A stretch of 40,200 nucleotides of DNA from a virus: positions 1 to 40,200 of IMG/VR virus record IMGVR_UViG_3300020596_000056, one strand, 5' to 3'. The translations under genes and the position numbers were made by a program. Positions 4,762 to 33,124 of this stretch are shown here, piece after piece. Within the stretch, counting starts at the first letter, position 1. Every line of letters begins with the position of its first letter. The notes under the pieces are model-generated. The model was not told where the DNA came from. It did no database searches and worked only from the letters and a program-made list of their open reading frames with translations.

Positions 4762-6594
4762 TCATGCGGTCAGTGCCGCGAGTTGTGCGTTAGAGAGGTT
4801 TGTGGGGTAGATGCGGACGTTCTTTACGTTTCCGAAAAGCTCAGTGCCGGCAACCCCGCCGCCTACGGTTAGAATAGCGTTTGTCAGTGATGTCGGAACG
4901 TTTGCAGTGGCGTCAGTGCCCTCTACCACCCCATTAACAGCGATAGCCAAATCGTTAAGCGCCCACCTTCCCGCAATTTTTTGCGTTGACGCGGATGCCG
5001 TTGTTCCCATAGCAGCGCCGTTTGCGACCCCCTGCCCGCCAGAGAACATGCGGCCAATATTTGATCCATTATTTACCTCAATAAAGATGCCCGAAAGCCC
5101 GTCTCCGGGGTCGTAAGCCCATGTGCCTATCGCGTTGGCTTGCGCCCCATTATTTGAAACAGTAGGCTCGCAATATACGGCTCCAGTAGCCGCCGCCATA
5201 TTCCCCGCCGCCACATAGGTCAGAAGGTCCTTGTTCCGCACTACTGAGGTTCCAGCAGCCCCTGCATTCGGGATATAGGACGAACGAGTCGAGCCGTTTT
5301 CAATCTGGAATCGAGTCGGCACCCCGACCACAGTAGCCGTAACCGTCCCCGCCCCGGTGACTACAAACGTTAGAGGAGTCGCGGGTGTTGCAGCACCACC
5401 CCCCGTAATCGTCGCAGACCCTGCCGCAATCGTGACCGAAGTTCCACCATCAAGCCAGCAGGTGTAAGTGCCCGTGCTGAGGATCGTAGTTGTCTGGTTC
5501 GCCGGGGCATCAGTAACACCAAGATACTGAGTCCGCGCACCCTCCCCCAAATACCCCTTAAGTGTTGCCCCGGAAATCGCAGCCCCTGTTGCCGCGGTGA
5601 CTACGTTCGATGCAACTGTGTTTCCGTTCAGAGTATTAAAAGACTTACTGCCATCAACCCCGGCCCCGTGGAATGGACTCGCCAAAACCCCGACGCTTAC
5701 ATACTCTGATGGGTTTTGGTTGGATTGGCTGGTGACTTCCTCTGTCTGCCAATACTCTGCGTTTATCACATCCCCACTAGCAGCAAACCTTACAATCAGG
5801 TTTGCATTGTTTGCGGCAATGCCAGACTTAAATACGCTGTATCGAGTCGGGACGGTCGTTATTGCGGGCAACTCTACGTAAGTTGCGCCAGAGTCTACGG
5901 AAACGCTGATCGCACCCGCGCCAGAAACGCGGGTAATAGTCACCGACCCAACGTAATCACCGGCGGGTGAAGATGGTTGCGAATTCCCGACAAAACCGTT
6001 ATTGGCTGTTGCCGTTGCCTGAATTGCACTATCTCTTGTTACGTTTGCCGAATTCCCGGTATAGGCTGCGTTAGTTATGTCCTGACTAGCGGCTGCTATC
6101 AGGTTACGAACCCGCCTCGCACCCGTAAACCGAGCCTCGCCGCTAACAACGTTCTTCAGCAATGCCTCAAAATCAATAACCGTCGCAATCGTGGCCCGGG
6201 TGAAGGTAGGGGTGCTGCTGCCTCCCGAGTAATTTGGGACTAGCGAAGTAGTGAGGCCCGCCCAAAAGCTCATTAGCGCGGCAGCGAGCGCGCCTTCTGC
6301 AGTCCTGGGCAGACCGGCTTGCCTATGCGTAATAGCCCCTGAGAAATCCACGCAAAGCCGGTCAGCCTTCATGCCCATTCCAGATTGGAAATAGGTGGGC
6401 GCCTCTTCTGTGGTCGCAATGTTGCCTGCTGCGACAAACCCTAGTCCGCTGCTAAAATGATTGACCGCCTGCCACGGATCAATTCCCAACAGACCCCCAT
6501 TAAAGGGTCTGCCCCCTGAATATCCCGTGGGAGCTTCGGGAGAGCAGCTTACGCGCCCGCCAGAGTCATAGGTTAGCTCTGCGGAGTTTAGCAC
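4762..6594 (-). CDS. Appendage (fibre-like) protein with N-terminal repeats and LamG-like C-terminus
   Basis: 610 residues with a GTG start that overlaps the stop of the upstream gene (GTGCTAA) and has GGAG eight bases upstream; the frame extends further but only as a shadow. The N-terminus has four imperfect repeats of about 22 residues (near 22-38, 44-61, 66-83, 88-105), each with a His/Tyr, a Gly-rich turn and a hydrophobic pair (for example THRQAGLPRTAEGAL). Such short repeats occur in phage appendage proteins. The long Thr/Ser/Gly/Val-rich middle is beta-structured, and the last about 140 residues end in the RIYPTNLSNAQLAALTA pattern of concanavalin/LamG-like domains, which bind glycans. 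Likely a head fibre or other appendage for surface binding. It is set among head genes, not with the tail fibre. Confidence 0.6.
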   Translation of the reverse strand: MLNSAELTYDSGGRVSCSPEAPTGYSGGRPFNGGLLGIDPWQAVNHFSSGLGFVAAGNIATTEEAPTYFQSGMGMKADRLCVDFSGAITHRQAGLPRTAEGALAAALMSFWAGLTTSLVPNYSGGSSTPTFTRATIATVIDFEALLKNVVSGEARFTGARRVRNLIAAASQDITNAAYTGNSANVTRDSAIQATATANNGFVGNSQPSSPAGDYVGSVTITRVSGAGAISVSVDSGATYVELPAITTVPTRYSVFKSGIAANNANLIVRFAASGDVINAEYWQTEEVTSQSNQNPSEYVSVGVLASPFHGAGVDGSKSFNTLNGNTVASNVVTAATGAAISGATLKGYLGEGARTQYLGVTDAPANQTTTILSTGTYTCWLDGGTSVTIAAGSATITGGGAATPATPLTFVVTGAGTVTATVVGVPTRFQIENGSTRSSYIPNAGAAGTSVVRNKDLLTYVAAGNMAAATGAVYCEPTVSNNGAQANAIGTWAYDPGDGLSGIFIEVNNGSNIGRMFSGGQGVANGAAMGTTASASTQKIAGRWALNDLAIAVNGVVEGTDATANVPTSLTNAILTVGGGVAGTELFGNVKNVRIYPTNLSNAQLAALTA

Positions 6595-7925
6595 TGCACA
6601 CGCTCCACAATAAACATTGACGAAATGGGGCCTTCCTGGCTCCACGTGACATTGCCGTGCTCAGACAGAGCAGCCAGCCACCAAGCATAGGGTTGAATGG
6701 TCAGGTGTAACTCACATCCTATGAGATCCCCATAAGAATCTGACACTGTGCTTATCTGAAAAAACACCTTTGGCACAGAGGCGAGAATGTTAGAAATTAC
6801 CCCGCTCACTTGCTCTGGGGGCAGGTGCTCCATAAGATCCGCGCAGAAGCCAAAATCGCCCCTTTCAGCAGTGCCCGCCACCAGGTCGCACTGTATGAAC
6901 GGAAGGTGCCCTGCTACGTCCTGAACTACGCCTGCCTCTACGAAGTCCAGCAGCCGCACGTCACAATCAGTAAGCTCCGCAATCTTGGCCCCGCCCTTGC
7001 CAGAGCCACACCCGAAGTCGATAACCTTGCCGGAAGGTTGGCACCTTTCGACGAAAAGTGCCGCGATTCCTTCTCCTGGAGAAATATGCCCGTAAGAGGG
7101 GTATGCCCACATCCGCGTGTATTTGTCCAACTCCGTGATAGGCGTTTGCGGAAGCATTCTATGCCACGCAACGAAGGGCAAAAGTCCGGAACCATGCACG
7201 CTGATTTCACATCCTAACTCCAGAAGCTGCGGCAGCAACAGTTGAAATTGCTCAACTTGAACTACCATCCACGGCGCTGCCCGGAAGTTACGCCCCTTGA
7301 CTGTCACTTCAATAACATCATCTTCATCATTAGCGGGCTGCACGTATGCGTGATGCGCCAAATCCTGCCGGCTTGAGTCGTAGCCGTATAAGTGCATAGT
7401 GCGGAAGCCTCGCGCGTAGGCGAGGGACATAGCAATCAGCCCTACGCTCGCACCGCCTCCCACAGCCTGTATTTCGCGCTCGCCGGGAACATAGTAACCG
7501 ATGTTCTCTGTGTCAATGTGGAACAGAGTTACGGACTGCCTTGCTTGGGTGAAGAGTGCAGGGTCACACTGCGAGGCCAAGAATACCATCTTAGCGGAGC
7601 AATCCAAAAAGGCCTCATTCTTACCGGCGCGCGCATCCAGGACCATCAGCGCATCTGGCGTGATGCCGTGGGTGTTGAGGAATTTGGCCGCACCGTTGAG
7701 CGCAAGAACATACGCGCCGTTTTTCTGGCGCGCAGCAATTTCAGCGACATCGCCTGTCAGCGAAGGCCCGCCGCCTACAAGCAGGCACTCCTGCTCGGTT
7801 TCTGGCAGTAATGCGAGCCACTCCAAATCACGCATAGAGGAATCGTGGATATTACGCGCTACCGTTTCAGTTGAGACGTTGTTCTCAAACTGAATATTGG
7901 GGGCCGCGAGCAGCAAAGCAGGCAT
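6588..7925 (-). CDS. Fusion of DUF115/MptE-like domain and SAM-dependent methyltransferase
   Basis: 445 residues; ATG with AAGGA seven bases upstream. The N-terminal half shows the DUF115 (6-hydroxymethylpterin pyrophosphokinase MptE-like, motility accessory factor) signature: VGGGPSL at 50-56, GITPDALMVLDAR at 87-99 and GGGASVGLIAMSLAYARG at 156-173 followed by LYGYDSS. The C-terminal half is a class I methyltransferase: motif I VIDFGCGSGKGG at 301-312 and a DLMEHLP motif at 363-369. In bacteria DUF115 proteins act in surface glycan or flagellin modification; the fused methyltransferase suggests a two-step transfer. Its place between the decoration protein and the appendage gene suggests a virion or envelope target. 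Substrate unknown. Confidence 0.7.
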   Translation of the reverse strand: MPALLLAAPNIQFENNVSTETVARNIHDSSMRDLEWLALLPETEQECLLVGGGPSLTGDVAEIAARQKNGAYVLALNGAAKFLNTHGITPDALMVLDARAGKNEAFLDCSAKMVFLASQCDPALFTQARQSVTLFHIDTENIGYYVPGEREIQAVGGGASVGLIAMSLAYARGFRTMHLYGYDSSRQDLAHHAYVQPANDEDDVIEVTVKGRNFRAAPWMVVQVEQFQLLLPQLLELGCEISVHGSGLLPFVAWHRMLPQTPITELDKYTRMWAYPSYGHISPGEGIAALFVERCQPSGKVIDFGCGSGKGGAKIAELTDCDVRLLDFVEAGVVQDVAGHLPFIQCDLVAGTAERGDFGFCADLMEHLPPEQVSGVISNILASVPKVFFQISTVSDSYGDLIGCELHLTIQPYAWWLAALSEHGNVTWSQEGPISSMFIVERVQC

Positions 7926-14930: not shown

Positions 14931-15331
14931 AAAGATACGTGACCCCCGAGGCAGGGTAAGGGGACAGTGATGGGGGTGGGTAGCCCCCGGGGGTTTCCCG
15001 CTCTGGTATTTTCCACGCCTCCACCGTCAAGGTCAAAGTCAAGGGCAAGGTCAACAGCAGGTCAACGTCAAGGGTGTTGCTCCGCAACGTACTGCTCGTG
15101 TTGCTCCGCAACGGTAACGTCAACGTCAACATCTTATCGTGTTGCTTCGCAACGGTAACGGGTCGTGCTCGCTGCGCTCGGTTCGTAACTGCTGGCTGGT
15201 ATCTGCTAAGCTGTTACCCTTTCGCTGTTCTAATTCCACGGCGTGTCTTTCTACAACCTAGTCAATCCCGCACTGCGTCTGTAGGGGTTTGGTCAGTAAC
15301 CACTAACGTCAGTGGTTACTAACGTCAGTGG
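14931..15331. other. Intergenic region with short palindromes and repeats
   Basis: About 400 bases with no gene I can support between the small terminase promoter and the next minus-strand gene. It contains GTCAAG/GTCAAC-rich blocks near 15025-15070, three hairpin modules of the form GTTGC-TCC-GCAAC (15076-15088, 15100-15112, 15141-15153, the last with TTC), copy one of a 40-bp repeat (15121-15160), a GCTCGCTGCGCTCGG palindrome, and the tandem repeat at 15302-15332. It lies beside the terminase genes, where a packaging site is expected. Confidence 0.6.
15121..15160. repeat. 40-bp dispersed repeat, copy 1
   Basis: Forty bases from CAACGTCAACATCTTATCGT to GGTAACG recur at 16241-16280 with one difference (T/C in the hairpin loop). 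A shorter version (AACGTCAACATCTTA) is at 16118-16132. The repeat contains a GTTGC-TTC-GCAAC hairpin. Confidence 0.85.
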
Positions 15332-15332
15332 T
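15296..15332. repeat. Tandem 15-bp repeat with internal palindrome
   Basis: ACTAACGTCAGTGGT occurs at 15302-15316 and 15318-15332, with a 16-base period. GTAACCACT (15296-15304), six bases and AGTGGTTAC (15311-15319) form a 9-bp inverted repeat across copy one. Copy two touches the stop of the 103-residue gene. It may be an operator or a transcription-end structure; no T-run follows on either strand. Confidence 0.7.
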
Positions 15333-15643
15333 CACCAACTTAATTCGGTAACGTGTTCCCTCCCCCCGCCATACATGTAGTCGTATATGCTGTCCATAGC
15401 GCACACGCAAAATTCCCGTTCAGCGCCTCCACATGTAAGCCAGTCCTCGGCGGTGTATGTGGTCACCTGCTGCCCCTCATCGTCGCAGTTTGTCACGCAC
15501 ATCGCCAACACCGCACTCAGCAGCAGTTGGTGCTTTTGGTTCATTTCAACCAGTGGCACCGGCTCGTAATTTCCGCCCAGTGCCTGCACTGCCTGCGCGT
15601 ATTCTTGCACATACGCCTGTAATCTTTCCTTGGCTACGGTCAT
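15332..15643 (-). CDS. Hypothetical Cys-rich small protein
   Basis: 103 residues from the ATG at 15643 (MTVAKERLQAYVQEYAQ); a GTG three codons earlier also has GGGG close by, so either start is possible. Helical N-terminus, then a middle and C-terminal part with six cysteines (AMCVTNCDDE, DWLTCGGAEREFCVCAM). The pattern might bind a metal but does not match a family I recognise. Located in the repeat-rich region, downstream of the 99-residue gene. The hairpin at 15652-15671 overlaps its possible ribosome site. Confidence 0.5.
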   Translation of the reverse strand: MTVAKERLQAYVQEYAQAVQALGGNYEPVPLVEMNQKHQLLLSAVLAMCVTNCDDEGQQVTTYTAEDWLTCGGAEREFCVCAMDSIYDYMYGGGREHVTELSW

Positions 15644-15651
15644 GTTCAGCA

Positions 15652-15671
15652 CCAGCCCCTTTCGGGGCTGG
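15652..15671. promoter_or_regulatory. Perfect 8-bp hairpin between two small genes
   Basis: CCAGCCCC, TTTC loop, GGGGCTGG. On the minus-strand mRNA it lies between the 99- and 103-residue genes, and its 3' arm holds the GGGG that could serve as the ribosome site of the latter, so folding could limit its translation or stabilise the upstream mRNA. On the plus strand it is followed by TTT only. Confidence 0.55.
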
Positions 15672-15678
15672 TTTCCGG

Positions 15679-15978
15679 TTACTTCGTTGTTAAAAACCCG
15701 CGCCTCAGCATGTAGCTAAGGTAGGCTTGCGGGCTAACACATTTCGGCTCGCTCAGCGCCTCCAGCTTGGCCAGTTCCAACGCCGTTGCAGGCAGCGCCT
15801 TTTTCACGGCATCCCACGCCGCAATAACATGCGCCGCCCGGCTTTTGGGTGCCTTGGCGGTCAGCACCAGCAACGCGTCGCTTGGCGTCGCGTTCCGCTT
15901 TGTCAACTTCGTGGCCACGCTGGCCACTTCTGTTACCACCGGCTTCGCTGCCGGGGCTTGCTTTGCTTTCTTGGCCAT
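15679..15978 (-). CDS. Small basic protein, unknown function
   Basis: 99 residues; AGGAG precedes the ATG. The N-terminus is Lys/Ala/Pro-rich and flexible (MAKKAKQAPAAKPVV), followed by a helical Ala/Lys core (RAAHVIAAWDAVKKALP) and a C-terminal SPQAYLSYMLRRGFLTTK. Composition is like small DNA-associated proteins but no family is recognised. It is isolated on the minus strand between the two repeat fields. Its stop is 8 bases from the hairpin that precedes the next gene. Confidence 0.5.
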   Translation of the reverse strand: MAKKAKQAPAAKPVVTEVASVATKLTKRNATPSDALLVLTAKAPKSRAAHVIAAWDAVKKALPATALELAKLEALSEPKCVSPQAYLSYMLRRGFLTTK

Positions 15979-16240
15979 CTTTGGTTCTCCTAGGTTAACC
16001 AACTCGCTGTTGGTATAAGTTAGTCCGCTAATCTGCGCTTTAGTTCCACGTTCTTTTTTATGGCTCCATCAATTTTACTTATGGTGCGGTGCAATAAATT
16101 TCGCTCGCTGCGCTCGCAACGTCAACATCTTAGCTTGGTCGCTGCGCTCCTGGGTTCGCGCTGCGCGCTCGCAACTGCATTCCGCCTGCGGCTGCATCGC
16201 TGGCGCGCTCGCGTCTCGCTTCGCTCGCCCCCTGCAACGG

Positions 16241-16280
16241 CAACGTCAACATCTTATCGTGTTGCTCCGCAACGGTAACG
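16241..16280. repeat. 40-bp dispersed repeat, copy 2
   Basis: Matches 15121-15160 in the same orientation, 39 of 40 bases, 1120 bases away. The hairpin loop is TCC here. Confidence 0.85.
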
Positions 16281-16284
16281 TCAG

Positions 16285-16344
16285 GTCAACTTCAACTTCA
16301 ACTTCAACTTCAACTTCAACGTCAACGTCAACTTCAACGTCAAC
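16285..16344. repeat. Hexamer tandem repeat (KTCAAC)10
   Basis: Ten uninterrupted hexamers, each GTCAAC or TTCAAC: one G form, five T forms, two G forms, one T form, one G form. The block directly follows 40-bp repeat copy 2. Confidence 0.9.
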
Positions 16345-16362
16345 CTCGCGCCGCCTCCTCTG

Positions 16363-18854: not shown

Positions 18855-18932
18855 AAAAGAATTGCTTGTAATCCTAACGGACAGGTGCATACTGGTTGTG
18901 TAGTTAAACGAAACCTAAGGAGCACGATATGA
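18855..18932 (+). repeat. 78-bp promoter/leader repeat, copy 1
   Basis: Same sequence as 19407-19484 at 76 of 78 positions, ending in both cases at ATGA of a gene. It holds TTGTAA (18866-18871), 16-base spacer, CATACT (18888-18893), then the ribosome site AAGGAG. It looks like an early promoter plus leader that has been duplicated. Confidence 0.85.
18866..18893 (+). promoter_or_regulatory. Putative early promoter P1
   Basis: TTGTAA, 16 bases, CATACT, in repeat copy 1, followed by a 35-base leader to the ATG at 18929. GACAGGTG before the -10 box recurs in altered form in other plus-strand promoters. Confidence 0.5.
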
Positions 18933-19408
18933 CACAGTTTGAAAATGAATTTGCGGAGTTAGATAAGGAAGTAGTTGCACTCGCAGTAAAGCTCGCCAAG
19001 CTGGTTTCTGAAAACAGGGGCGACGCGCAGGAAGCTCTGGAGATGTTTACCAAGGAATTTCGAATCTCACTATACAAGAGCGCCAGCGGGGGAACCGGGC
19101 CTGAGGAGAGGCAAATGATTGAAATTACCCGAGCAGAAGTGCTGAAACGACTGGGCTACGAAGCGCCGAGCCTCGTATACACGGAAAGTGGGGAAGAGGT
19201 AAAAGTGGGCGACGGGGTTACGCTGGACGGGGAAACTCACATGGTAACATACTTCTGCCATCCGCACAAGCCTAGTGCGAGCGGGCGTGTGACCGTGCAG
19301 GCGCTGAACGGGCAGTGTTACGAATACTACGTCACCGTGATTGGCGCTAAGTGGGTTAACAGGCGTGACCAGCCGAGCATGCTGGAACAGTGGCTGAGCG
19401 AACCCTAA
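18929..19408 (+). CDS. First early protein, unknown function
   Basis: 159 residues; AAGGAG with 7-base spacing. Helical, acidic N-terminal half (AELDKEVVALAVKLAKLV) and a small C-terminal beta domain with a Gly-rich GVTLDGETHMVTYFC strand pattern like an SH3 or Tudor-like barrel. It is the first gene of the early block and has its own promoter, often the position of host-takeover or antirestriction genes; no family is recognised. Confidence 0.6.
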   Translation: MTQFENEFAELDKEVVALAVKLAKLVSENRGDAQEALEMFTKEFRISLYKSASGGTGPEERQMIEITRAEVLKRLGYEAPSLVYTESGEEVKVGDGVTLDGETHMVTYFCHPHKPSASGRVTVQALNGQCYEYYVTVIGAKWVNRRDQPSMLEQWLSEP

Positions 19409-19484
19409 AAGAGTTGCTTGTAATCCTAACGGACAGGCGCATACTGGTTGTGTAGTTAAACGAAACCTAAGGAGCACGATATGA
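19407..19484 (+). repeat. 78-bp promoter/leader repeat, copy 2
   Basis: Begins in the stop codon of the 159-residue gene and ends at the start of the next gene. Two differences from copy 1, at the bases before the TTGC and before the -10 region (AGGCGC in place of AGGTGC). TTGTAA is at 19418-19423 and CATACT at 19440-19445. Confidence 0.85.
19418..19445 (+). promoter_or_regulatory. Putative early promoter P2 (duplicate of P1)
   Basis: Same hexamers and spacer as P1, inside leader repeat copy 2. It would let the operon from 19481 be transcribed independently of the first early gene. Confidence 0.5.
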
Positions 19485-24480: not shown

Positions 24481-24522
24481 AAAGGGGCGGGCAATCCAGC
24501 CCGCTCCCTTTCCTAGGAGAAC
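24481..24522 (+). repeat. Hairpin leader repeat, copy 1
   Basis: AAAGGGG-CGGGC, AATCCA loop, GCCCG-CTCCC-TTT, then CCTAGGAGAAC with the ribosome site. The stem is about 12 bp with one bulged T. The element recurs 136 bases downstream with one extra G. Confidence 0.85.
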
Positions 24523-24616: not shown

Positions 24617-24659
24617 AAAGGGGGCGGGCAATCCAGCCCGCTCCCTTTCCTAGGAGAAC
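24617..24659 (+). repeat. Hairpin leader repeat, copy 2
   Basis: Same as copy 1 with five G instead of four in the left arm, which turns the bulged T into a G-U pair and extends the stem to 14 bp. The rest, including the AATCCA loop and CCTAGGAGAAC, is identical. Confidence 0.85.
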
Positions 24660-30006: not shown

Positions 30007-30030
30007 TTCATTTTCGGCATTTTGTTCCAG

Positions 30031-30055
30031 CGCCCGCCTCTAGGCGGGCGTTTTT
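30031..30055 (+). terminator. Strong rho-independent terminator
   Basis: CGCCCGCC (30031-30038), TCTA, GGCGGGCG (30043-30050), then TTTTT: a perfect 8-bp GC stem with a T-run, 25 bases after the stop. It closes the unit that starts at 29493. Confidence 0.9.
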
Positions 30056-30072
30056 ACTTACAGGAGACAATC

Positions 30073-30822
30073 ATGGAAGTATATGTTATATCAAGCGGAC
30101 GAGCTGATAAGCAGACGACTTACAACAGCCTTCCAGCAAGAATACAAGAGAAAGTCAATATCGCCATACCTTCCGCGGAAGCCGCCGATTACGCGGAGTA
30201 TCCCCACGTTCTTGTGCCCGTGATGGGCATCGGCCGGACAAGGCAGTGGCTGGTAGACCAGTGCGCAGACCAAACAATCTGTATGCTGGACGACGACCTT
30301 ACTTTTGCCACACGGCGGGAAGACGACCCCACTAAGTTCTACCCTTCCACAGAGTATGAGATTGAGGCTCTGTTTGCAGACATCGAATTTCAGTTGTCAA
30401 ATTTCGCCCACGTCGGAGTGGCTTCTCGGGAGGGGGGCAACCGGCAAGTGGAAGACTATCGCGGCACCGGGCGCATGTTGCGCGTATTGAGTTACGACGT
30501 TGAGATCTTACGCAGGACGGGAACACGCTACGACAACCTGGAGGTCATGGAAGATTTTGACGTAACTCTGTCCTTGCTCCGAAAGGGCTACCGCAACGCC
30601 ATCGTCAACTACATGGTGCAGAATCAGAATGGCAGCAACCTGAAGGGCGGGTGCAGTCAATACCGCACGAAGGATGTGCAGGAGCGGGCGGCAGCCGCTT
30701 TGGCTTCGCGGCACCCCGGCTTCGTTAAGCTGGTGCAGAAAAACACCAAAGGCGCGGATGGATGGGGCACCCGAACAGACGTCATAATCCAATGGAAGAG
30801 GGCGTATGAAGAATCCCAATGA
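30073..30822 (+). CDS. GT-A glycosyltransferase-like protein, probably a TET/base-modification-associated type
   Basis: 249 residues; AGGAG precedes the ATG just after the terminator. MEVYVISSGR opens a Rossmann-type strand, VPVMGIGRTRQWLVDQC gives a helix, and CMLDDDLTF (70-78) is a DxD-like metal and sugar-nucleotide site. A VMEDFDVTLSLLRKGY segment with Glu-Asp-Phe-Asp resembles the second acidic region of GT-A enzymes. The start pattern and LDDD are those of TET-associated glycosyltransferases (TAGT), which glycosylate modified bases. The next two genes overlap and belong to base modification, so DNA is the probable acceptor. The sugar donor is unknown. Confidence 0.6.
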   Translation: MEVYVISSGRADKQTTYNSLPARIQEKVNIAIPSAEAADYAEYPHVLVPVMGIGRTRQWLVDQCADQTICMLDDDLTFATRREDDPTKFYPSTEYEIEALFADIEFQLSNFAHVGVASREGGNRQVEDYRGTGRMLRVLSYDVEILRRTGTRYDNLEVMEDFDVTLSLLRKGYRNAIVNYMVQNQNGSNLKGGCSQYRTKDVQERAAAALASRHPGFVKLVQKNTKGADGWGTRTDVIIQWKRAYEESQ

Positions 30823-31651
30823 GCAGGTGGCGTATTGGATCACAGAGCGTGAGAAGATCCGTGTGCAGCACGACGAAGGACAGCGCAAGCCGTGGACCGC
30901 AGACACTACTCTGGAGCGCTACCGGTTCTGCAATGTGCGGCGGGAAGATGACAGGGTTACGCGCTGGCTGAAGAAGTATTGGCGCGACCCTAACGAGGGC
31001 CACGAAAATATGACTGCGGCCATGCTCCTCGCCCGCATGGTGAACTGGCCGCCGACCCTCGATTTAATAGGGTTCCCGCTAACGTGGGATCCGCAGCGTA
31101 TAGTTGACGCCATACACGCCTGCATGAGCGAGGGGAAAGCGTGGTCTGCCGCATACGTCGTAACAACCTGCGGAGTGAGTATGGACAAGGCGCTATACGT
31201 TGTCCAGACAGCAGGGCTTGCGGCGGGCAACCCCACGTATACCCCCGCCCCCGCCGACACGCTGGCGGGCTTCTGGACAAGGCTTAAAACTATTCCCGGG
31301 CTAGGGGCGGGCTTTTTGGCGGCGCAAGTTGTGGCAGACTTGAAATATCTCAAACCGCTGAGTGGCGCCGCCGACTGGGGAAATTGGGCTACTCCCGGCC
31401 CTGGAAGTCGCCGAGGAATAAACAGGTATTTCAACCTCGCGTTAGACGCCAAGCTGCCAGCGATCGAGTGGCTTGCTCGCCTGCACCAAGTCCGCTCCGA
31501 GGTAGAAGACCTACTGCCTGCTCATCTCCGGGACATCCACGCGCAAGACTGGCAGAACGTAATGTGCGAATGGGATAAATACCAGCGGACTGTCCTGGGG
31601 GAAGGTCGGCCCCGCAGTAACTACCGCCCGGAGACCGCATATGAAATCTGA
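30806..31651 (+). CDS. Base hypermodification protein, HMUDK-helical / aGPT-pyrophosphorylase type
   Basis: 281 residues; overlaps the glycosyltransferase by 17 bases with GAGGG before the ATG. A WITEREKIRV start, PWTADTTLERYRFCNVRRED (29-48) and DRVTRW, then a HhH-like IPGLGAGFLAAQVVADL (163-179), DW at 190-191 and GPGSRRGINR (198-207) are the signature of the 5-hmdU DNA kinase helical domain / alpha-glutamyl-putrescinyl-thymine pyrophosphorylase group. These act on pyrophosphorylated 5-hydroxymethyl-dU in DNA or are fused to the kinase. There is no P-loop domain attached here. So the step it catalyses in this phage is open. Confidence 0.7.
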   Translation: MKNPNEQVAYWITEREKIRVQHDEGQRKPWTADTTLERYRFCNVRREDDRVTRWLKKYWRDPNEGHENMTAAMLLARMVNWPPTLDLIGFPLTWDPQRIVDAIHACMSEGKAWSAAYVVTTCGVSMDKALYVVQTAGLAAGNPTYTPAPADTLAGFWTRLKTIPGLGAGFLAAQVVADLKYLKPLSGAADWGNWATPGPGSRRGINRYFNLALDAKLPAIEWLARLHQVRSEVEDLLPAHLRDIHAQDWQNVMCEWDKYQRTVLGEGRPRSNYRPETAYEI

Positions 31652-31823
31652 GCTTCTGGCCATTAGGAATCGGCTGCACATCCGGAATGTAAACCGAGAC
31701 GGCCGCTGTGATTGTTTGGTAGTTTGGGAGGACGGGGAATGGAAGGTGGAGATATTCGCCAGTGAAGCACACGCTCATAAATTCGCAGATGAGCACAAAA
31801 TGGAGGTCGTGAATCATGCATAG
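31641..31823 (+). CDS. Small protein inside the modification cassette
   Basis: 60 residues, overlapping both neighbours by a few bases (11 with the preceding gene, 8 with the following one). SELLAIRNRLHIRNVNRDGRCDCLVVWEDG and a short VEIFASEAHAHKFADEHK helix (quoted here in parts: RNRLHIRNVNRDGRC, EIFASEAHAHKF). A CDC pair. A small mixed alpha/beta protein, perhaps a regulatory subunit; no family recognised. Confidence 0.55.
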   Translation: MKSELLAIRNRLHIRNVNRDGRCDCLVVWEDGEWKVEIFASEAHAHKFADEHKMEVVNHA

Positions 31824-32820
31824 CTTAGTCGCACGTAATGTGAACGATGCCTATTACGAGGGCATGTGGTATATGTATCTGATGGGCAAGGAGCAGAGCA
31901 GCCGGGGCGGGGATGTCCGAACTGTTCCGCACCCGGTAGTCACTCAGTATGAAAAGCCGTGGGAGCGGGTGCTGTTCAACGGACCCCGAAGGCCCAACCC
32001 CTTCTTCCACCTTATGGAGTCGATGTGGATGTTGGCGGGGCGGCAGAATGTAAGCTGGCTCTTGAAGTATAATTCGCGAATGCAAGACTTCGCAGACCAC
32101 GGAGTCCTTCGCGGAGCTTACGGTTACCGATGGCGAAAGCATTGGATAGAAGAAAGCGGGGACTCCTTCGACCAGATACGTATGGCCATTGAGATGCTCA
32201 AAGCCTCAAGCACTACGCGGCAAGCAGTGATCGCAATGTGGGACCCCGGCATAGACCTCGGCACTGACAACAAAGACGTCCCCTGCAATACGCACATCTA
32301 TTTCCGTGTGGTGAACAAGAAGCTGGAGATGACGTTGATGTGCCGCAGCAATGATATCGTATGGGGCGCGTATGGGGCGAACGCTGTCCACTTCAGTTTC
32401 CTCCACGAGCTTGTTGCGCTAGGGGCGGGCTATCCGCAGGGCAAGATGTATCAGTTCAGCAACAACTGGCACATCTATCGGCGGCACTGGTATCTGCTAC
32501 AGGAAAAGGAATACGAGGGCAACCCTTACGAAACGCACGACCATCCCTTTGTGCCGCTAATCCGGCCCGGAACAGCCGAGACCTACCAGGACGTATTGCG
32601 GGATGCAGAGGATTTCACAGGCGCGCTGTTCCTCTGGGAGCATGTCTTCCGCACACGGTTCTTTACTGACGTCGTGCTCCCTATGCGCAAGGCATGGGAG
32701 GCCCACAAAGCCGGAAACGACCACGCCGCCCTAGTAGCGTTAGGAGAGACCTACCCCTGCGACTGGACAGACGCAGGGGAAATCTGGATTAAGGAGAGCA
32801 TCGATGGCAAAAGCGAATGA
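31816..32820 (+). CDS. Thymidylate synthase family, probable dUMP hydroxymethylase
   Basis: 334 residues; overlaps the preceding stop. Thymidylate-synthase/hydroxymethylase signatures: NPFFHLMESMWMLAG (61-75), YGYRWR (102-107), catalytic VPCNTH with Cys157, CRSNDIVWGAYGAN (176-189) and HIYRRHW. Asn189 in the GAYGAN motif lines up with the Asn of TS that reads the uracil ring, which favours dUMP over dCMP. The residue after the catalytic Cys is Asn, where TS has His. Phage enzymes with RSND..WGAYGAN are usually hydroxymethylases. It would make 5-hydroxymethyl-dUMP for the two modifying proteins. Confidence 0.7.
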   Translation: MHSLVARNVNDAYYEGMWYMYLMGKEQSSRGGDVRTVPHPVVTQYEKPWERVLFNGPRRPNPFFHLMESMWMLAGRQNVSWLLKYNSRMQDFADHGVLRGAYGYRWRKHWIEESGDSFDQIRMAIEMLKASSTTRQAVIAMWDPGIDLGTDNKDVPCNTHIYFRVVNKKLEMTLMCRSNDIVWGAYGANAVHFSFLHELVALGAGYPQGKMYQFSNNWHIYRRHWYLLQEKEYEGNPYETHDHPFVPLIRPGTAETYQDVLRDAEDFTGALFLWEHVFRTRFFTDVVLPMRKAWEAHKAGNDHAALVALGETYPCDWTDAGEIWIKESIDGKSE

Positions 32821-33124
32821 CATGCAGGTCGGCGGGCAGCACTATCGGGGCGTGAAGATTCAACATTGGGACATTGTGGACATGCACAGACTCGACTACT
32901 TCCAGGGTCAAATCACGAAGTATGTGATGCGGTGGAGAGACAAGGGCGGGATGCAGGACTTACTGAAAGCACAGCACTTCCTGGCAAAGTATATTGAACT
33001 GCAAAAGGAGGGCGACACCCCCTGCGGTGCTGAGAGCGGCGCTGAGCCGGGGAGGGGATATGTCGACCAAGATGCAGAACCTGCAGTTGCACGTCCGGTG
33101 CGGGCGGGTATAATAAAGCTTTAG
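32804..33124 (+). CDS. DUF3310-type protein (SaV-like)
   Basis: 106 residues; AAGGAG and a 17-base overlap with the synthase gene. The core VGGQHYRGVKIQHWDIV and YVMRWRDKGG.QDLLKAQHFLAKYIEL is the DUF3310 pattern found next to nucleotide-metabolism and ligase genes. Function is unproven in the family (sometimes called nucleotide kinase). The C-terminal 36 residues are Ala/Gly-rich and hold the promoter at 33087-33114. Confidence 0.75.
   Translation: MAKANDMQVGGQHYRGVKIQHWDIVDMHRLDYFQGQITKYVMRWRDKGGMQDLLKAQHFLAKYIELQKEGDTPCGAESGAEPGRGYVDQDAEPAVARPVRAGIIKL
33087..33114 (+). promoter_or_regulatory. Putative promoter for the ligase operon leader
   Basis: TTGCAC, 16-base spacer, perfect TATAAT (33109-33114). 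It starts inside the DUF3310 gene and reads into the structured leader. Confidence 0.55.

Follow-up and report, generated by a model that had tools for sequence, protein, structure and literature searches.

What does a phage do with hmdU when it carries the thymidylate synthase-like (TS-like) gene and the helical HMUDK_hel protein (HEL) of known thymidine hypermodification systems, but has a glycosyltransferase of the TAGT family in place of the P-loop 5-hmdU DNA kinase? In related phages hmdU is incorporated and is then modified within the DNA by a sequence-specific kinase (PMC6449724, PMC7653180). The question is posed here by a linear IMG/VR virus record, which was analyzed over its entire length of 40,200 bp (the window), and whose genes include those for head, packaging, tail, lysis, DNA polymerase and helicase functions, as seen in a PHROGs/Pfam scan of its open reading frames. 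An earlier note on this DNA had described a base-modification cassette, and that observation is confirmed; its interpretation finds support in the protein families, the dUMP-type Asn and the failure to detect a kinase. We consider it rather probable that the cassette glycosylates hmdU in DNA directly, without a phosphorylated intermediate, with HEL acting as the base-recognition partner.

Layout of the cassette

Five overlapping genes occupy positions 30073-33124, encoding the TAGT, HEL, a 60-residue protein, the TS-like enzyme and a DUF3310 protein (Table 1). The overlaps are 17 nt (TAGT/HEL), 11 nt (HEL/60-aa ORF), 8 nt (60-aa ORF/TS) and 17 nt (TS/DUF3310). The reading frames agree with those delimited in the earlier note, as does their overlap; the unit which it counted as three genes and a 60-residue one is, however, in truth of four or five genes, since the 60-residue ORF is conserved and the DUF3310 gene is coupled to that of TS. 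The latter gene also lies 3' of TS in L002, L005, L008 and hmdU phages. The 60-residue ORF is a real conserved gene, its family being located just 3' of HEL at 9 of 22 non-redundant loci with an upstream TAGT and at 3 of 25 with a kinase, and its presence at both kinds of locus makes it a companion of HEL rather than of the TAGT. The TAGT-HEL-TS order recurs in L002, L005, L007 and L008 at 35-47% protein identity, often flanked by SNF2 helicase, DUF3310 and ligase genes, and the closest relative is L018 (58% identity for HEL, 52% for the TAGT). As this order is kept in several unrelated contigs, the cassette is no chance assembly.

The strong terminator that had been placed upstream of the cassette stands as a stable hairpin (-20.6 kcal/mol, z=-4.8; the top terminator-like site of the region), but not as an established terminator. 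Its end lies approximately 20 nt 5' of the TAGT start codon, and a simple scan found no promoter-like site between the two, such that transcription of the cassette either reads through the hairpin or begins with it as a leader element. As such, a role in the leader is as plausible for it as one in stopping transcription.

Table 1. Positions of the cassette genes, their key residues and the upstream hairpin in the 40,200-bp window.
Feature	Position	Strand	Size or basis
Intrinsic terminator or leader hairpin	30029..30052	+	GC-rich 10-bp stem, then TTTTT
TAGT-family (GT-A, GT2-like) DNA glycosyltransferase	30073..30822	+	249 aa
LDDD, D73-D75, predicted nucleotide-sugar/metal site	30289..30297	+	invariant in 33 TAGTs
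D161 (MEDFDV), candidate catalytic base	30553..30555	+	invariant in 33-38 TAGTs
HMUDK_hel protein (HEL), all-helical	30806..31651	+	281 aa
IPGLG hairpin, HhH-like, between helices 153-160 and 170-179	31292..31306	+	DSSP of model, column conservation
D190, ~25 residues past the IPGLG hairpin	31373..31375	+	invariant in 75/75 HELs
GPGSRRGINR signature	31397..31426	+	G198, P199, G200, G204 invariant in 75 HELs
Conserved small protein between HEL and TS	31641..31823	+	60 aa
TS-like deoxyuridylate hydroxymethylase (predicted)	31816..32820	+	334 aa
Catalytic Cys157 of TS-like enzyme	32284..32286	+	109/109 relatives
Asn189 (= E. coli TS Asn177; T4 dCMP hydroxymethylase Asp179), dUMP-type	32380..32382	+	alignment
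DUF3310 protein	32804..33124	+	PF11753 3.1e-5

The three central proteins

Profile searches with Pfam and PHROGs uphold all three family assignments of the earlier note. The TS-like enzyme matches PF00303 (Thymidylat_synt; 8.5e-25) and phrog_5131 (3.5e-90), and is approximately 40% identical to Yuavirus enzymes annotated as deoxyuridylate hydroxymethyltransferase. Cys157 and Asn189, which had been singled out as consistent with the synthesis of 5-hydroxymethyl-dUMP, are both in place and are kept in all 109 relatives from HEL-containing and related loci. In the T4 dCMP hydroxymethylase the corresponding Asp179 is the determinant of dCMP versus dUMP (PMC6400193); Asp stands at this position in T4 gp42, as it does in the hydroxymethylase of L017, a T4-like Acinetobacter phage in which the TAGT gene adjoins that of this enzyme. 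Judged by its active-site residues the window enzyme appears to be a dUMP-type hydroxymethylase, and for the Asn this assignment is robust. The Brevibacterium phage LuckyBarnes was described in print as encoding a dCMP hydroxymethylase (PMC6588365), and on that annotation the TS-like enzyme would be a dCMP hydroxymethylase and the TAGT would glucosylate hmC, in line with the characterized T-even TAGTs, which work on glucosyl-hmC (PMC13216743, PMC13390438). We hold this to be extremely unlikely for the window, given that the enzyme and all 109 of its relatives have Asn and not Asp, that the nearest TS relatives come from Yuavirus-type hmdU phages, and that no alpha- or beta-GT match was obtained among the main window ORFs scanned; the LuckyBarnes enzyme is of the Asn type too. 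Phage thymidylate synthases and hydroxymethylases are also readily confused with one another (PMC5977210), and as sequence alone is no proof of hydroxymethylase chemistry, the enzyme might simply be a thymidylate synthase, with the glycosyltransferase directed at a target other than DNA. That Trp is not among the commonest residues at the site aligned with E. coli TS Trp80 in the 109 relatives, that members of the TAGT family are known for glycosylating DNA, and that the operon with HEL is so consistent (TS lies within 9 kb of HEL at 74 of 79 loci) render this highly unlikely.

The glycosyltransferase matches PF20691 (9.2e-15; 55.6 bits against a cut-off of 27.5) and phrog_842 (1.4e-41). Its AlphaFold model (pLDDT 94.7, with a 33-sequence alignment) resembles in Foldseek the GT-A enzymes TarP, TarS, K4CP (K4 chondroitin polymerase) and SpsA at E values of ~1e-5 to 1e-6, while the first-ranked match is the nucleotidyltransferase KdsB, also a nucleotide-sugar-type fold. 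The model, these matches and the invariance of D73-D75 confirm the GT-A fold with LDDD that had been proposed for this protein, and by analogy with the GT2 family D161 may serve as the catalytic base. PDB sequence searches, with the single protein or a profile, returned nothing meaningful. No TET/JBP match was found by Pfam or PHROGs among the main window ORFs (small ORFs aside); the association with TET/JBP is the context behind the TAGT name and does not define membership of the family. The gentiobiosyl-hmC produced by the T6 TAGT has a beta-1,6 linkage, which makes it plausible that the reaction here is inverting and its product beta-linked. T4 beta-GT is able to glucosylate hmU within oligonucleotides (PMC4111573), and so offers an enzymatic precedent for sugar transfer to hmU. 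Weighing against direct glycosylation, the T6 TAGT forms gentiobiosyl-hmC by placing a second glucose on already glucosylated hmC, and is thus known to add the second and not the first sugar (PMC13216743).

HEL matches PF18723 (1.3e-35; 123.6 bits against a cut-off of 25) and phrog_2396 (1.1e-52), and the GPG...RG pattern is invariant in 75 HELs, in keeping with the HMUDK-helical signatures previously recognized in it. The predicted structure (pLDDT 95.5) is all helical and has no significant fold match in the PDB by Foldseek (best E 0.43). The top matches, themselves non-significant, are to the queuosine nucleosidase Qng1/DUF2419 (E 0.43-1.8, probability 0.69), with the AGOG DNA glycosylase far lower in the list (E 3.5, also non-significant); PDB sequence searches, single and profile, again gave nothing meaningful. 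The layout of an HhH-like hairpin followed by Asp recalls the HhH-GPD DNA glycosylases, to which HEL may be related, and D190 could, from its spacing, be the counterpart of their catalytic Asp. It could therefore be argued that HEL is itself a DNA-glycosylase-like enzyme whose invariant Asp serves in a step on the hmdU nucleotide, its partners acting before or after. Its eight invariant polar residues (R15, R46, D49, R77, D178, D190, E255 and K258) are more than a simple adaptor requires, and the glycosylase-like spacing of hairpin and Asp, along with the weak likeness to Qng1/DUF2419 (E 0.4) and the much weaker one to AGOG, would agree with catalysis. Nonetheless we think a catalytic HEL unlikely, as even the best of these matches is non-significant and the chemically unrelated partners found beside HEL are a better fit to a shared recognition role.

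Partners of HEL and the missing kinase

No 5-hmdU DNA kinase was found in the window with PF18748, PF18747, a 4-sequence model or a 31-sequence model. These four profile models bear out the earlier failure to find a P-loop hmdU kinase, and rule out one hidden in the contig. Searches by tblastn with the Sonora and Pam3 proteins likewise found no aGPT-Pplase in the window. The DUF3310 protein was considered for the role of the missing kinase and rejected, the PHROG matches described as 'nucleotide kinase' covering mainly the DUF3310 part; PHROG descriptions are unreliable here, in that 5-hmdU kinase candidates match 'terminase small subunit'. The 31-sequence model recognized all four kinase-bearing records used as positive controls at 1e-53 or better, and with it no kinase was found in any of 25 viral records that combine a TAGT with HEL, most of which are fragments but which include the complete genome of LuckyBarnes (50,774 bp). 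Weak partial matches (E ~0.003) occurred only in two bacterial MAGs.

A scan of viral contigs with the single HEL protein gave nothing and one with an alignment query gave matches; at 79 non-redundant HEL loci, a kinase lies within 2 kb at 25, a TAGT at 34, neither at 20 and both at none (Fisher p=1.4e-8, a value inflated by the relatedness of the loci and their sampling by similarity to the window HEL). When the distance is widened to 3 kb a kinase and a TAGT both accompany HEL at a single locus, L010. The kinase label requires 12 changes on the HEL tree, at least 4 of them forced by well-supported branches, and partners have been exchanged several times. Sister HELs with 100% support, for instance, have a TAGT-like neighbor in L037 and a different, possibly GT-B, neighbor in L065. 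At the 20 loci without kinase or TAGT the nearest genes include radical-SAM, UDG and glycosyltransferase-like ones, with Pfam identifying radical SAM (L072), uracil-DNA glycosylase (L120), IU-nucleoside hydrolase (L033) and DpdA (L106) near HEL; a sulfotransferase match in L023 is weak and below cut-off. The proteins in this slot in L024, L027, L050, L065 and L066 remain without a Pfam match at a threshold as loose as E 10, and to call them GT-B-like, as they look by eye, is only a guess.

The alternation of kinase and TAGT beside HEL shows that the TAGT stands in the kinase's place. The earlier note had left the choice between a sugar placed directly on hmdU and a kinase located elsewhere, and this alternation, together with the 0 of 25 records, favors the former. 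For the window to follow the classical pathway, its kinase would have to lie outside the contig or be encoded by the host, with the TAGT adding a sugar later. The linear record would allow for a gene beyond its ends, and L010 does combine all three genes; given, however, the 25 records without a detected kinase, one complete genome among them, and the fact that the kinase is normally adjacent where the partners of HEL are known, we judge this very unlikely.

Since HEL is paired with such different chemistries, the simplest reading is that it makes a common contribution, most likely the recognition of hmdU in DNA. We can entertain, though short of calling it probable, the broader proposal that HEL is a general hmdU-recognition subunit with interchangeable enzymes, here directing a one-step glycosylation of hmdU to a base-J-like nucleotide by a JBP-independent route. 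The interchangeable partners would then comprise the kinase, the TAGT, other glycosyltransferases, radical SAM and perhaps others. In MW202897, a complete phage with genes for a TAGT and a TS-like enzyme, tblastn found no HEL, and HEL may consequently be dispensable. This phage, locus L010 and the lack of a significant PDB fold match for HEL all weigh against direct glycosylation with HEL as partner.

A proposed pathway and its relation to known systems

Very probably the phage substitutes 5-hydroxymethyl-uracil for thymine and, in the finished DNA, adds a sugar to it. Before replication, the TS-like enzyme would convert dUMP to 5-hydroxymethyl-dUMP, and the replication machinery would insert hmdU for part or all of the thymidine. 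Once the DNA has been replicated, the TAGT, as a metal-dependent GT-A transferase, would move a sugar from a nucleotide-sugar donor to the 5-hydroxymethyl group, with HEL recognizing or presenting the hmdU base to it, as it presumably does in M6-type phages for the 5-hmdU DNA kinase. This would yield a 5-(glycosyloxymethyl)uracil, identical to base J in the event that beta-glucose is the sugar transferred, and DNA carrying it would be protected against restriction. SP8 DNA, which has plain hmdU, resists only ~8% of Type II enzymes (PMC7653180); with so little protection from hmdU itself, a further group on the base would matter.

The Yuavirus-type Pseudomonas phages (M6, MP1412, PaMx11) share with the window a dUMP-type hydroxymethylase and HMUDK_hel in one operon, with HEL upstream of TS, and the kinase-HEL-(x)-TS arrangement of PaMx11, Sonora and MP1412 matches that of the window. 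The modified base of M6 is 5-NedU. Unlike M6/ViI-type thymidine hypermodification, the window has no detected kinase or aGPT-Pplase. LuckyBarnes comes closer in content (gp38-gp41), its complete genome having HEL, TAGT and an Asn-type TS-like gene and no kinase found, but it differs in its two tandem TAGTs and opposite gene order; its annotation has a dCMP hydroxymethylase and glycosyltransferases, with HEL as hypothetical. This phage is cultured and fully sequenced, and a direct test is feasible. The T-even TAGT (T6 beta-glucosyl-HMC-alpha-glucosyltransferase) is likewise a PF20691 protein with a GT-A fold, but it acts on glucosyl-hmC and stands beside a dCMP hydroxymethylase of the Asp type and, in the case of T6, also an alpha-GT, whereas the window has an Asn-type synthase and HEL and no alpha/beta-GT among its main ORFs. 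Outside of phages, the predicted O-glycosylated hydroxymethyluracil recalls kinetoplastid base J (JBP1/2 and the J-associated glucosyltransferase), although that pathway oxidizes T in DNA to hmU and the route predicted here passes through the TS-like enzyme at the nucleotide level. Bacillus phage SP-15 also has a sugar on a thymine-derived base; in that case glucose is on a dihydroxypentyl side chain of uracil and a large sugar-metabolism gene set is involved (PMC5977210).

The gene families are all known, and with caution we place the novelty in the kinase-free operon of TAGT, HEL and Asn-type synthase, which extends the hypermodification systems. Neither its wide occurrence, nor the small protein, nor the alternation of HEL partners was found in the literature searched, though an earlier prediction linking TAGT and HEL is possible. 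A 2026 study reported a solitary TAGT in 288 of 753 phage genomes and called these potential novel transferases (PMC13216743); for at least some of them, the window operon supplies a concrete context, that of hmdU with HEL. If the pathway is as proposed, it would broaden the nucleotide chemistry of phage DNA, might provide a tool for the production of base-J-type DNA, and would constitute a natural partner-swap experiment on the role of the helical protein in the hmdU kinase pathway.

Repeated elements and a structural-module protein in the window

The copies of a 78-nt direct repeat, 97% identical, each end at an ATG, for two successive early-side genes, and the pair looks like a duplicated promoter/leader. 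A GC hairpin plus Shine-Dalgarno unit also occurs in two near-identical copies with small ORFs immediately 3' of both, and the hairpin and ribosome-binding-site layout 5' of the TAGT-family glycosyltransferase gene is similar to these. Repeats of 12-nt period (CAACTTCAAC/CAACGTCAAC) are abundant between the terminase and primase genes. Within the structural module, a 445-aa protein is weakly sialyltransferase-like at its N-terminus and methyltransferase-like at its C-terminus.

Coordinates of features in the window and in compared loci
Location	Feature
Window 18855-18932, 19407-19484	78-nt direct repeat
Window 24481-24522, 24618-24659	Hairpin/Shine-Dalgarno unit
Window 15034-16347	12-nt-period repeats
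Window 6588-7925 (-)	445-aa protein
L009 8081-11114	HEL, TAGT, TS, radical-SAM-like gene
L010 8542-11875	HEL, TAGT, TS, radical-SAM-like gene, kinase
L106 7027-7980	DpdA-like transglycosylase
L033 7081-7980	IU nucleoside hydrolase
L013 (MW202897) 914-2694	TAGT, Asn-type TS

Other partners of the HMUDK_hel protein (HEL)

The L009 and L010 loci possibly yield a more elaborate, glycosylated hmdU derivative. Unexpected partners lie immediately 5' of HEL in L106 and L033. Four bacterial contigs, L097, L098, L103 and L120, have a uracil-DNA glycosylase-HEL-TS neighbourhood; three of them are Hyphomicrobium/Hyphomicrobiaceae records and the other is a Pseudomonadota MAG, and the length of some would fit a chromosome. 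This arrangement may serve the host in DNA modification or defence. A 5-hmU kinase and a thymidylate synthase have been reported among validated defence systems (PMC13092281).

Complete phage genomes as comparisons

Gp38-gp41 of Brevibacterium phage LuckyBarnes (L014, NC_047851) have been annotated as a dCMP hydroxymethylase and glycosyltransferases (PMC6588365). However, the active site is Asn-type and HEL is a neighbour, which together suggest that the modified base would instead be hmdU. In the complete, circular genome MW202897, which carries TAGT and an Asn-type TS, neither the P-loop kinase nor, by tblastn, HEL was found; this pairing of TAGT and TS without detected HEL constitutes a natural test of the need for HEL.
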